A stretch of 43,883 bases of DNA. It comes from Candidatus Moraniibacteriota bacterium. Lineage in GTDB: Bacteria > Patescibacteriota > Minisyncoccia > Moranbacterales > UBA1568. The stretch's first letter is position 1; every line of letters starts with the position of its first letter. The notes beneath the pieces are model-generated. The model did no database searches. It was given only the letters and a program-made list of their open reading frames with translations, and had not been told where the DNA came from. The stretch is taken from the NCBI GenBank assembly GCA_018062205.1, contig JAGOSP010000008.1, positions 1 to 43,883 of the forward strand, given 5' to 3'. A program made the translations under genes and the position numbers. Shown here in pieces: positions 1,670 through 5,729 of this stretch.

Positions 1670-1740
1670 ATTTGCTATAATGGTTCTAACAACTGAAATA
1701 TAGGCCTAAACTTAGCTTTAATCAAGCTGGGCATGGTCTG

Positions 1741-1850
1741 AAATCCTGCGTAACAATAACGGTCTCATGATCGGTACTTGTTACGCAGGTCTATGCTCGA
1801 AAGGGCGTAGGGTTTCCGCAAGGATTCCGCCGTCGTGAGACCTTTTTTGT
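1741..1850 (+). ncRNA. Candidate pseudoknotted structured RNA with terminal T-run
   Basis: A perfect 10-bp helix (1745-1754 with 1780-1789) encloses a 25-base loop. In that loop 1761-1771 can pair with 1832-1842 downstream (11 bp including two G-T pairs), forming an H-type pseudoknot. Between the two lies an 8-bp hairpin with a GAAA tetraloop (1791-1798/1803-1810) and a smaller GCAA-capped hairpin around 1816-1823. The downstream arm is followed by six T (1843-1848), as in an intrinsic terminator. It sits between the divergent TIR set and the DUF2726 gene. I recognise no known RNA family. It could be an independent ncRNA or the leader of the 1858 gene. Confidence 0.5.
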
Positions 1851-1857
1851 ATCCAAA

Positions 1858-2289
1858 ATGAAAAAGAAACAAATCGACAAAGTGCTGTATCTCAAGAATG
1901 ATTCATTGTTGACTCAATCGGAACAAAAGTTCTATTTCATTCTTGCTGAAATTCTTCAAGATCGTTATCTTATTTTCTCGAAGGTTCGTATCCCCGATAT
2001 CGTTCATATCCCAGAATGGTATAAACCATATTACTGGGCAATCTACTGGTGGGATAGGATCAAATCAAAACACGTCGACTTTCTCGTTTGTGATCGAAAC
2101 TCTTTTGAACCATTGCTTGTTATCGAAGTGGATGATCCGCTACATTTGTTGCCGAAGGGTAAAAAACGAGATGTCTTGGTAAACTTTGTTTTTCGCAAAG
2201 CACGCCTCCCAATTCTTCGCCTCACAGATAAATCTCTTGAGAATAAAAAGGCGCTAGAAGAATCGATTGAAAGTAGTCTTAAAAGTTGA
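1858..2289 (+). CDS. DUF2726-family nuclease-like protein
   Basis: The 143-residue protein has the DUF2726 layout: an N-terminal TQSEQKFYFIL segment, a central KVRIPDI, then KHVDFLVCD followed by LLVIEVDD and a closing RKARLPILRL. The spaced acidic residues in HVDF and IEVDD resemble the D...ExD arrangement of PD-(D/E)XK-fold nucleases, to which this family has been linked. Catalysis is not proven. Family members often occur alone or fused to helicase or zinc-ribbon domains; here it stands alone and about full length for the core domain. Its start lies nine bases after the T-run of the structured RNA, so the RNA could be its leader. Probable island cargo. Confidence 0.72.
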   Translation: MKKKQIDKVLYLKNDSLLTQSEQKFYFILAEILQDRYLIFSKVRIPDIVHIPEWYKPYYWAIYWWDRIKSKHVDFLVCDRNSFEPLLVIEVDDPLHLLPKGKKRDVLVNFVFRKARLPILRLTDKSLENKKALEESIESSLKS

Positions 2290-2983: not shown

Positions 2984-3102
2984 CCCACCCTTACCTCCCG
3001 GTGGGATAGGACTATTGCTCAGACTTTAGCCCGAAATATCTGATAGGAGGTTTACACATTTTTAGGGATATCAATTCAGATTGATAGTTTGTGTAAACCT
3101 CC
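2984..3102. repeat. Two successive hairpins, candidate replication origin structure
   Basis: The non-coding stretch 2875-3179 contains a 6-bp hairpin (2984-2989 with 3000-3005). It is followed by a long hairpin in which 13 bases (3046-3058) pair perfectly with 3090-3102 and enclose a second perfect 7-bp hairpin (3069-3075/3080-3086, TCAG loop). Structures of this type are expected at double- or single-strand origins of rolling-circle replicons, and a Rep gene follows at 3410. The stems could equally form in an RNA that ends at the terminator just downstream. The origin assignment is inference. Confidence 0.5.
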
Positions 3103-3409: not shown

Positions 3410-4156
3410 ATGTACTATCATCGGAAAATCATCATCTCGGGGAAGTTTATCGAGCTCTACGAATACGAAAAAACGCTCCGGCGTGATTTCACGCGAAAGA
3501 AGAAAAAGAGACCGGATCCTGTGCAGGAGGAACTAGACGCCCGTATCGATCCGGAGCCGTCCGCAGGATCCAAGCAGGTGGAGAAACGCAAAGATTCGAT
3601 CTCTCGAACCCGAACGGAGATACGGCGGCTCATAAACTGCAATCAGGATTTCACGAAATTCTATACCCTGACATTCAAGGAAAATATCACCGATGTAAAA
3701 ATTGCGAACAAGCATTTTAGTAAATTCATCATGCGGATGGAGTATCGGTATGAAGATTTCAAATATGTTTCCGTCATCGAATTTCAAAAGCGTGGAGCTG
3801 TGCATTATCATTTCCTTTGTAATCTTCCCTACATCAAATCGAAAGAAGTCGAAACTATCTGGGGGTTTGGGTTTATCAAAATAAAAAGAATACAACACGT
3901 CACGAATCTCGGCGCGTATGTCTGCAAGTATCTGCAAAAGGACATGACGGACGGACGGCTGTTCAACAAAAAGAAATACTTCTGTTCAAAAAACCTTGAT
4001 CGACCGACGGAGATTTACGACGATCAGATCGTCGGACAACTCATTGCTCAATACGGTTTGGAAAGCGCGGCGGTTGAGTATGAATCGACTTTTTCCGGCG
4101 AGTATACCGGCAAGGTTGAATACAAACAGTTCCGATTGGAAGGAATCGACGCTTGA
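3410..4156 (+). CDS. Rolling-circle replication initiator (HUH endonuclease)
   Basis: The 248-residue protein carries the three motifs of HUH rolling-circle initiators. Motif 1 is FYTLTF at about residues 84-89. Motif 2 is the metal-binding His pair in GAVHYHFLC (His132 and His134). Motif 3 is GAYVCKYLQK, with the candidate nucleophile Tyr170 and Lys173. Such enzymes nick one strand at the origin, stay covalently bound through the tyrosine and start displacement synthesis. The single-tyrosine arrangement and size resemble plasmid and filamentous-phage-type Rep proteins. The N-terminal 75 residues are basic and less conserved. Two strong hairpins upstream are candidate origins, and the recombinase follows by 34 bases. 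All three motifs are intact, so it could still act on an excised circle. Confidence 0.85.
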   Translation: MYYHRKIIISGKFIELYEYEKTLRRDFTRKKKKRPDPVQEELDARIDPEPSAGSKQVEKRKDSISRTRTEIRRLINCNQDFTKFYTLTFKENITDVKIANKHFSKFIMRMEYRYEDFKYVSVIEFQKRGAVHYHFLCNLPYIKSKEVETIWGFGFIKIKRIQHVTNLGAYVCKYLQKDMTDGRLFNKKKYFCSKNLDRPTEIYDDQIVGQLIAQYGLESAAVEYESTFSGEYTGKVEYKQFRLEGIDA

Positions 4157-4190
4157 TTTTATCCGTTCATTTCTGTTACGTTGTACGGAT

Positions 4191-5729
4191 ATGAAATACA
4201 TCCTCTACGCCAGAAAATCCACCGAAAGCGATGATCGACAGGCAATGTCCATCGAATCGCAGGAAATAGAGCTTTTGAAAATGGCCGGAAGCCTCGGTTT
4301 CCGCATTGATAAGACATACAAGGAAAGCATGTCTGCCAAGCAAGTTGGTCGTCCGATCTTCGATGAAATGCTCCGGTATATCGGACAAAAAAAGGATTGT
4401 ATCGTGTTCGCCTGGAAAGTCGATCGACTGACTCGAAACATTTTTGACGGAGCAAAAATCATCGAGCTTTTGGAAAAAGGGAATATCAGGGAGATTCGGA
4501 CGATCGACAAGATCATCGTTGATAACCCGATCGACAAATTCATGCTCTCCATCGATTTCGGGGTCGGCAAGAAATATTCCGACGATCTTTCCGTCAATGT
4601 GAAACGAGGCAATAAGACGAAGCTTGAAAAGGGAGGCTGGCCGGGCGTCGCTCCGATCGGATATCTCAACGACAAGCTCGACAAGACGATCATCATCGAT
4701 GAGGAGCGCGCGCCCTACATTCGCGAGGCGTTCGATCTGTATGCGACCGGAGCATATAGCGTCATGGAGATAGCCACTATCCTGTATGAAAGCGGTCTGC
4801 GCACGCGGGCTGGTCGCAAGGTGCACAAGAGCAAGATTCATAAGATACTCACCAATCCTTTTTACACGGGGCTCATGCTTCGGCAAGGCAAGCTGTATCA
4901 GGGTTGCCACGAACCGGAGGTCTCCCATCAGGCGTTTGAAAAGGTGCAAGACGTTTTGTTTCGCAGAATCCCCACCAAAAGGAAGACGCTGTTTTTTCCC
5001 TTTCGAGGATATCTTAAATGCGGAGTCTGTGGCTGTGCCCATACCGCCAGCCGCAAGAAGGGGCACGATTATTACTACTGCACGAATGGCCGTGGTCTTT
5101 GTGGAGAGCACACAAGCTATATGCGGGCAGAAGACGTTGCGGCCATCGTGGCAACCCAGCTTGGAGAGATCAGGTTCGATGAAGAACTCATCGAATCAGC
5201 TTACCTTGCCAATAAGGAAAAGGGAGAACGCACCGAAATCTATCAGGAAACCTCGCGGGAAACCATCCTGAAAGGCCTCGAATTCATCTCCAAGAAAGAA
5301 TCGAAGCTCTTGGATAGTCATCTGTCCGATTTGATCACTACGGAGGTCTACGAGGCAAAAATGAAGGAATTGCACAACGAACGGGAGACGCTTCATTCCC
5401 AGCTCCGGAAAATCGGTCAAAAAACACGGGAGGGGCTTAGCACTTTGGAACAAATAAAAGAGGTGTTTTTGACCGCGAGCAAAGCCAAAAAAGATTTTCT
5501 CGATGCCGAGGACGAGCAAAAATCAAAAGTGCTGGAAAAGGTACTTTGGAACCTTGAAATCAAAGAGAAAGTTATGGCTTCTGCGAGCTTCAAAATGCCC
5601 TATGAAGCACTAAAAAAATCGCCCAAAAATGGCGACTTTTCACAAATGCTGGGGAGGAAGGGATCGAACCTTCGTATGGGGGCTTCAAAGGCCCCTGCCT
5701 TACCGCTTGGCTACTCCCCAAGAGTGTGA
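4191..5729 (+). CDS. Large serine recombinase (integrase/resolvase)
   Basis: I place the start at the ATG opening MKYILYARKST, because the upstream in-frame stretch lacks homology. Ser10 in YARKST is the catalytic serine. Arg residues downstream (for example DRLTRN) fit the resolvase fold. A recombinase domain with GVAPIGY and KIHKILTNPFYTG follows, then a zinc ribbon (CGVCG with CTNGRGLCG) near residues 275-310, then a long charged coiled coil. At 512 residues the length is normal for large serine recombinases that integrate or excise circles. The last roughly 25 codons run antisense through the tRNA-Gln gene, typical of an integrase whose attachment site lies at its own 3' end. It is the likely mover of this element. 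Confidence 0.88.
   Translation: MKYILYARKSTESDDRQAMSIESQEIELLKMAGSLGFRIDKTYKESMSAKQVGRPIFDEMLRYIGQKKDCIVFAWKVDRLTRNIFDGAKIIELLEKGNIREIRTIDKIIVDNPIDKFMLSIDFGVGKKYSDDLSVNVKRGNKTKLEKGGWPGVAPIGYLNDKLDKTIIIDEERAPYIREAFDLYATGAYSVMEIATILYESGLRTRAGRKVHKSKIHKILTNPFYTGLMLRQGKLYQGCHEPEVSHQAFEKVQDVLFRRIPTKRKTLFFPFRGYLKCGVCGCAHTASRKKGHDYYYCTNGRGLCGEHTSYMRAEDVAAIVATQLGEIRFDEELIESAYLANKEKGERTEIYQETSRETILKGLEFISKKESKLLDSHLSDLITTEVYEAKMKELHNERETLHSQLRKIGQKTREGLSTLEQIKEVFLTASKAKKDFLDAEDEQKSKVLEKVLWNLEIKEKVMASASFKMPYEALKKSPKNGDFSQMLGRKGSNLRMGASKAPALPLGYSPRV
5649..5720 (-). tRNA. tRNA-Gln (anticodon TTG)
   Basis: The minus strand folds into a complete cloverleaf. The 7-bp acceptor stem TGGGGAG/CTCCCCA has discriminator G, and the D-arm contains AAGCGGTAA. 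The 5-bp anticodon stem GGGGC/GCCCC has loop CTTTGAA, giving anticodon TTG. The T-arm GAAGG/CCTTC has loop TTCGATC. CCA is not encoded. It is the likely attachment site of the neighbouring element, since the recombinase ORF overlaps the entire gene on the other strand. Confidence 0.95.

Follow-up and report, generated by a model that had tools for sequence, protein, structure and literature searches.

The window that we analyzed, a 43,883-nucleotide stretch of a contig from a Candidatus Moraniibacteriota bacterium, contains a DUF2726 gene at 1858 to 2289 (+ strand; Pfam PF10881, E 3.3e-24) that is preceded on the same strand by a structured RNA. Divergent from this element, at 775 to 1263 (−) and 1268 to 1669 (−), a ThsB-type TIR protein (PF08937, E 1.7e-27) sits beside a small membrane protein, and the two are possibly a defence pair.

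A LOOT RNA upstream of a DUF2726 gene

Positions 1703 to 1828 (+) are LOOT RNA (RF03000), with a score of 76.7 bits against a gathering threshold of 46.4 (cmscan, Rfam 15). The match aligns to the model in full (positions 1 to 121), shares stems P1 to P4 with the Rfam consensus alignment, and is the only RNA that cmscan called here. Furthermore, the CCUAAAC ... GCAUGG ... AAA core and the GNRA-capped 3' hairpins of LOOT are all present. The initial annotation, which described the element as new and as matching no RNA family, was therefore mistaken on this point, and the idea of a new family is rejected. As far as the available portions of the literature go, the LOOT family was built from Weinberg alignments (PMC7779021, Rfam 14), gained two base pairs in Rfam 15 (PMC11701678), and is an extreme case with cross-covariation in six helices (PMC7657543). 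The same portions of these three papers give no pseudoknot, cis position, or function for LOOT; the founding description (10.1093/nar/gkx699) may differ.

From 5' to 3' on the + strand, the element opens with a TATAAT sequence (1676 to 1681; a 6/6 match), likely the -10 box of a promoter belonging to the leader itself. It is followed by ACAACT (1689 to 1694), an instance of the conserved element ACAAYT that emerged from a comparison of upstream regions and lies just 5' of the Rfam model. The P1/P1a 5' domain (1703 to 1738), placed by the Rfam consensus alignment, holds the CCUAAAC ... GCAUGG core, with near-invariant columns in A3. Stem P2 consists of P2a (CCTGCGTAACAA, 1745 to 1756) and P2b (TTGTTACGCAGG, 1778 to 1789); it had been described as a perfect helix of 10 bp, and it is indeed a perfect inverted repeat, with a length of 12 bp. 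Folding and the Rfam alignment both support the two hairpins that follow, P3 (1791 to 1811, with a GAAA loop at 1799 to 1802) and P4 (1812 to 1828, with a GCAA loop at 1818 to 1821). The element ends in a T-rich tail (TTTTTTGT, 1843 to 1850), a U-tract also capable of pairing with the A-rich strand that flanks P2a, and the DUF2726 start codon lies 7 nt past this tail. The initial annotation had recognized the two GNRA-type hairpins and the terminal T-run; the P1/P1a domain, the TATAAT box, and the role of the apical P2 hairpin (GGTC/GATC) as an alternative to the second helix had gone unmentioned.

An 11-bp helix that interlocks with P2 had also been reported, and it is present. Specifically, GGTCTCATGAT (1761 to 1771) pairs with GTCGTGAGACC (1832 to 1842), with two G-U pairs among the 11. 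The helix can be extended by CGGU (1772 to 1775) and GCCG (1829 to 1832), in which case U1771 is bulged rather than paired. In its extended form, the 5' arm (GGTCTCATGA, a bulge, then CGGT; 1761 to 1775) is supported by covariation across 56 loci, and the 3' arm (GCCGTCGTGAGACC, 1829 to 1842) by covariation and by a comparison of pairing within and between loci. Because the first helix encloses the 5' arm in its loop and leaves the 3' arm outside, the topology is that of an H-type pseudoknot. The apical P2 hairpin is a likely alternative to this second helix. Folding of the region gave a z score of -6.0 relative to dinucleotide shuffles, with 0 of 200 shuffles folding as well. The RF03000 model ends at 1828, which is 5' of the 3' arm of the second helix. 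The pseudoknot is thus outside the Rfam model, though the element itself belongs to a known family.

Distribution of LOOT

One LOOT is found in the window's own genome. More broadly, LOOT occurred in 43 of 187 relatives and in 83 of 380 genomes sampled from the phylum; a single genome carried as many as seven copies. Flanks were taken for 133 further matches, and the sources are metagenome-assembled genomes. When 84,980 species genomes were scanned for the core motif, the matches fell mostly in records named as candidate phyla or Patescibacteria. Of the remainder, seven pattern matches that were checked in records named as other bacteria (two in Cyclobacteriaceae and one each in Methylococcaceae, Flavisolibacter, Bacilli, Rhizobium, and Bacterium HR16) and one on a viral contig were not LOOT according to cmscan. 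Since these matches fail this search, we attribute them to chance.

Several loci depart from the standard architecture. A variant with a pseudoknot 3' arm resembling GGCAAGCGGGTGGCC was seen at L156, L181, L187, and the second LOOT of L155 (L155b), and in L181 and L187 P4 is absent or replaced. At L110 and L111, the 5' half of LOOT is fused within P2 to unrelated sequence, as if by insertion or misassembly.

A pseudoknot beyond the Rfam boundary

In nearly every locus, the P2 loop is complementary to the sequence directly after P4. The mean energy of the loop-flank duplex was -27.1 kcal/mol within a locus and -17.1 kcal/mol when loop and flank came from different loci, a between-locus test that corrects for composition and only partly for relatedness. 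The median length of the own-locus duplex was 21 bp. Across 19 pairs in an alignment of 56 sequences, 82.7% of pairings were standard. Double-sided changes numbered 139 compared to 48.7 in shuffles, with 0 of 500 shuffles as high and a maximum of 42 in slid controls. Likewise, the covariation score was 0.432, as opposed to 0.221 when shuffled and at most 0.184 in slid versions. The outer pairs (columns 75 to 177), which bring together the T-rich tail and the A-rich strand by P2a, also covary. In 81% of loci the tail contains 6 or more T among 8 positions.

The initial annotation had named homologues whose two helices do not covary as grounds for abandoning its proposal; that check was run, and the helices covary, which means that the second helix is not a product of chance. 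Its description of a structured RNA with an H-type pseudoknot is thereby borne out, with a loop of the first helix that pairs with outside sequence and covariation that backs the pairing. The pseudoknot is family-wide, and the LOOT fold extends past the Rfam boundary. Whereas the Rfam model is typed as 'Gene; sRNA' and stops before the 3' arm, the RNA in the window and throughout the family runs on to include a covarying pseudoknot and a tail rich in U, and it is located in cis ahead of genes.

Position relative to downstream genes

By position, LOOT is a leader, generally in Patescibacteria. An ATG frame of at least 60 amino acids began on the same strand 18 to 125 nt past the model end in 92% of LOOTs, compared to 20 to 34% of control positions, with gene starts called by a simple script; the remaining 8% or so had no ATG frame of 60 amino acids at the expected place. 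These figures support the earlier suggestion that the element might be a leader for the gene at 1858. The distance from the model end to the start codon had a median of 55 nt. In 105 of 131 loci LOOT shared its strand with the next downstream gene, while upstream genes were random in strand (62 +, 69 -). A TATAAT-like box (at least 5 of 6 matches) was present in 75% of LOOT upstream regions versus 18% of random positions. Between the -10 box and the start of the Rfam model, ACAAYT was found in 64% of LOOTs and in 1.3% of random positions; the model may also be too short at its 5' end.

The downstream genes are diverse. Fifty Pfam families were represented among 115 downstream proteins, the commonest being N6/N4 DNA methyltransferases (7/115) and DUF2726 (6/115), alongside zinc ribbons (zinc-ribbon membrane proteins), DUF4352, and SNase. 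The genes have no common function or pathway, which would be unusual for a ligand riboswitch. The idea of a defence RNA, also raised initially, is supported only indirectly: restriction-modification-type methyltransferases or DUF2726 are encoded after some LOOTs, but the majority of downstream genes are of other kinds. At L155, two units of LOOT plus gene lie in tandem, and the genes are paralogous. We also considered whether depletion of Shine-Dalgarno motifs is special to LOOT genes and rejected it, as the motif preceded 9% of them versus 11% of other genes at the same loci.

A copy of P2a at start codons

Counting copies at an ungapped score of at least 9, 31 of 130 loci repeat the P2a strand downstream, compared to 0.4% between loci, a comparison that likewise corrects only partly for relatedness. 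In most cases the ATG begins at -3 to +5 nt relative to where the copy ends; two of the 31 copies (L077, L154) lie within coding sequence and are probably due to chance. Start copies of other LOOT segments were sought and none were found, so that P2a alone recurs there. The pairing that the copy makes available is well matched to the stem itself, with a mean energy of -19.9 kcal/mol for P2a:P2b and -19.2 kcal/mol for P2b:start. Among leaders of methyltransferase genes, eight of nine have a start copy (Fisher p = 2e-5), an association noticed post hoc. In the roughly 75% of loci that have no copy, weak complementarity to the start was sought and was nearly absent. The window is one of these: P2a has no copy at the start of its DUF2726 gene, and a riboswitch-like platform that pairs alternatively with the start codon is not seen there.

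We considered that the copies reflect duplication at the DNA level. That explanation is disfavored: only the P2 strand is copied, directly next to the ATG, and this favors pairing. In L113 and L115, the P2a copy is followed by a short overlapping frame, possibly a leader peptide, that lies 5' of the main gene; the main gene carries a Shine-Dalgarno motif of its own.

Proposed mechanism and alternatives

We interpret positions 1676 to 1857 of the window as the promoter and 5' LOOT leader of the DUF2726 gene, and we think it reasonably probable that this leader is a bistable expression switch. The leader and gene would be transcribed together, and the leader would move between two folds. In the first, P2 and its apical hairpin would be closed, leaving the 3' arm free. 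In the second, the helix of pseudoknot and U-tract would form, acting as an attenuator (a terminator-like stem with a U-tract), occluding the start region, or both. Based on geometry and pairing, the full 20-bp pseudoknot is probably incompatible with a P2 that is closed and carries its apical hairpin, and the two are therefore likely alternatives. The pseudoknot and U-tract would be the output common to LOOT leaders, and in the window the ATG is near enough for occlusion to be conceivable. Some observations count against the switch: many tails read UUUGUGU, which makes a weak terminator tract, about 75% of loci (the window included) lack the start copy, and some 8% of LOOTs are not followed by the expected ATG frame. 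In about a quarter of leaders, there may be a second output, in which P2b would quit P2a and pair with the start-codon copy, blocking translation. If a signal is sensed, the sensor would be the conserved P1/J1-2/P3-P4 core.

More tentatively, LOOT may represent a large orphan class of riboswitch-like RNAs in Patescibacteria, where the pseudoknot and U-tract platform, joined in a quarter of cases by the start mimic, would control diverse accessory genes; this is a plausible reading that we would stop short of calling likely. It would extend to roughly a fifth of sampled genomes, with DNA methyltransferases prominent among the genes. Like translational and transcriptional riboswitches, LOOT has a 5' leader position, mutually exclusive pairings, a U-tailed stem, and a start region that may be sequestered at about 24% of loci. 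Unlike them, its genes share no pathway and it matched no Rfam riboswitch family; as the 5' leader of a controlled gene, it agrees with the riboswitch definition by position only.

Alternatively, LOOT could be a constitutive leader that stabilizes the mRNA or aids the start of translation without switching. The great diversity of downstream genes and the GNRA-capped architecture would be consistent with such a role, as would the absence of Shine-Dalgarno motifs from most leaders and background genes alike. Yet the apical P2 hairpin and the covarying pseudoknot are probably mutually exclusive, as are P2a and the start copy, which would compete for P2b at nearly equal energies. A constitutive role is unlikely in our view.

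We give somewhat less credence to the possibility that LOOT is a free-standing sRNA, that is, a transcript of about 160 nt acting in trans, with its own promoter and a terminator made of the pseudoknot and U-tract, and with the adjacent gene incidental. The promoter-like box, the U-tract after the last helix, and the Rfam typing all speak for such an RNA. However, for an RNA acting in trans one would expect neither the same-strand start codons that follow 92% of LOOTs (median distance 55 nt) nor the P2a copies at the start codon of that very downstream gene. LOOT is probably a cis-acting, bistable leader rather than a free small RNA.

Two further explanations are very improbable. An RNA antitoxin, paired with the downstream gene in the manner of a type III toxin-antitoxin system, would share with ToxIN-type antitoxins the order of pseudoknot RNA, U-tract, and gene (DUF2726 in the window), but LOOT has no repeat array, the RNA in the window lacks tandem repeats, and the 50 unrelated Pfam families downstream include no conserved toxin. 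Nor do we expect the helices to be a DNA-level site of a mobile element, such as a single-strand origin or recombination site: there are rep and recombinase genes 1.5 to 4 kb away and multiple LOOT copies per genome, but GNRA loops, an upstream promoter-like box, and a strand-specific tie to the start codon argue otherwise, and most LOOTs precede methyltransferase and other genes rather than rep.

Most Patescibacteria have not been cultivated, and there has been little study of how they regulate their genes. A widespread leader before genes for DNA methyltransferases and membrane proteins offers a handle on regulation in this group. Furthermore, the evidence for a cis leader, for start copies in many members, and for a pseudoknot missing from the model provides a concrete, testable mechanism and a corrected family boundary.

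Genomic neighborhood

Other features of the window lie farther from the LOOT leader. At the start of the contig (1 to 90), where no tRNA was called, a T-arm-like stretch (GTTCGATCCCT) has 11 nt in common with tRNA-Gln and is perhaps a cut tRNA or an attachment site. Downstream, an HUH-type Rep (REP_ORF2-G2P) and a large serine recombinase are encoded at 3410 to 5729. The 3' end of the recombinase gene overlaps tRNA-Gln on the opposite strand (5648 to 5720), as in a tRNA-integrated element. Upstream of the rep gene, a perfect 13-bp inverted repeat with a 31-nt spacer (GGAGGTTTACACA/TGTGTAAACCTCC, 3046 to 3102) could be a replication origin or an operator.
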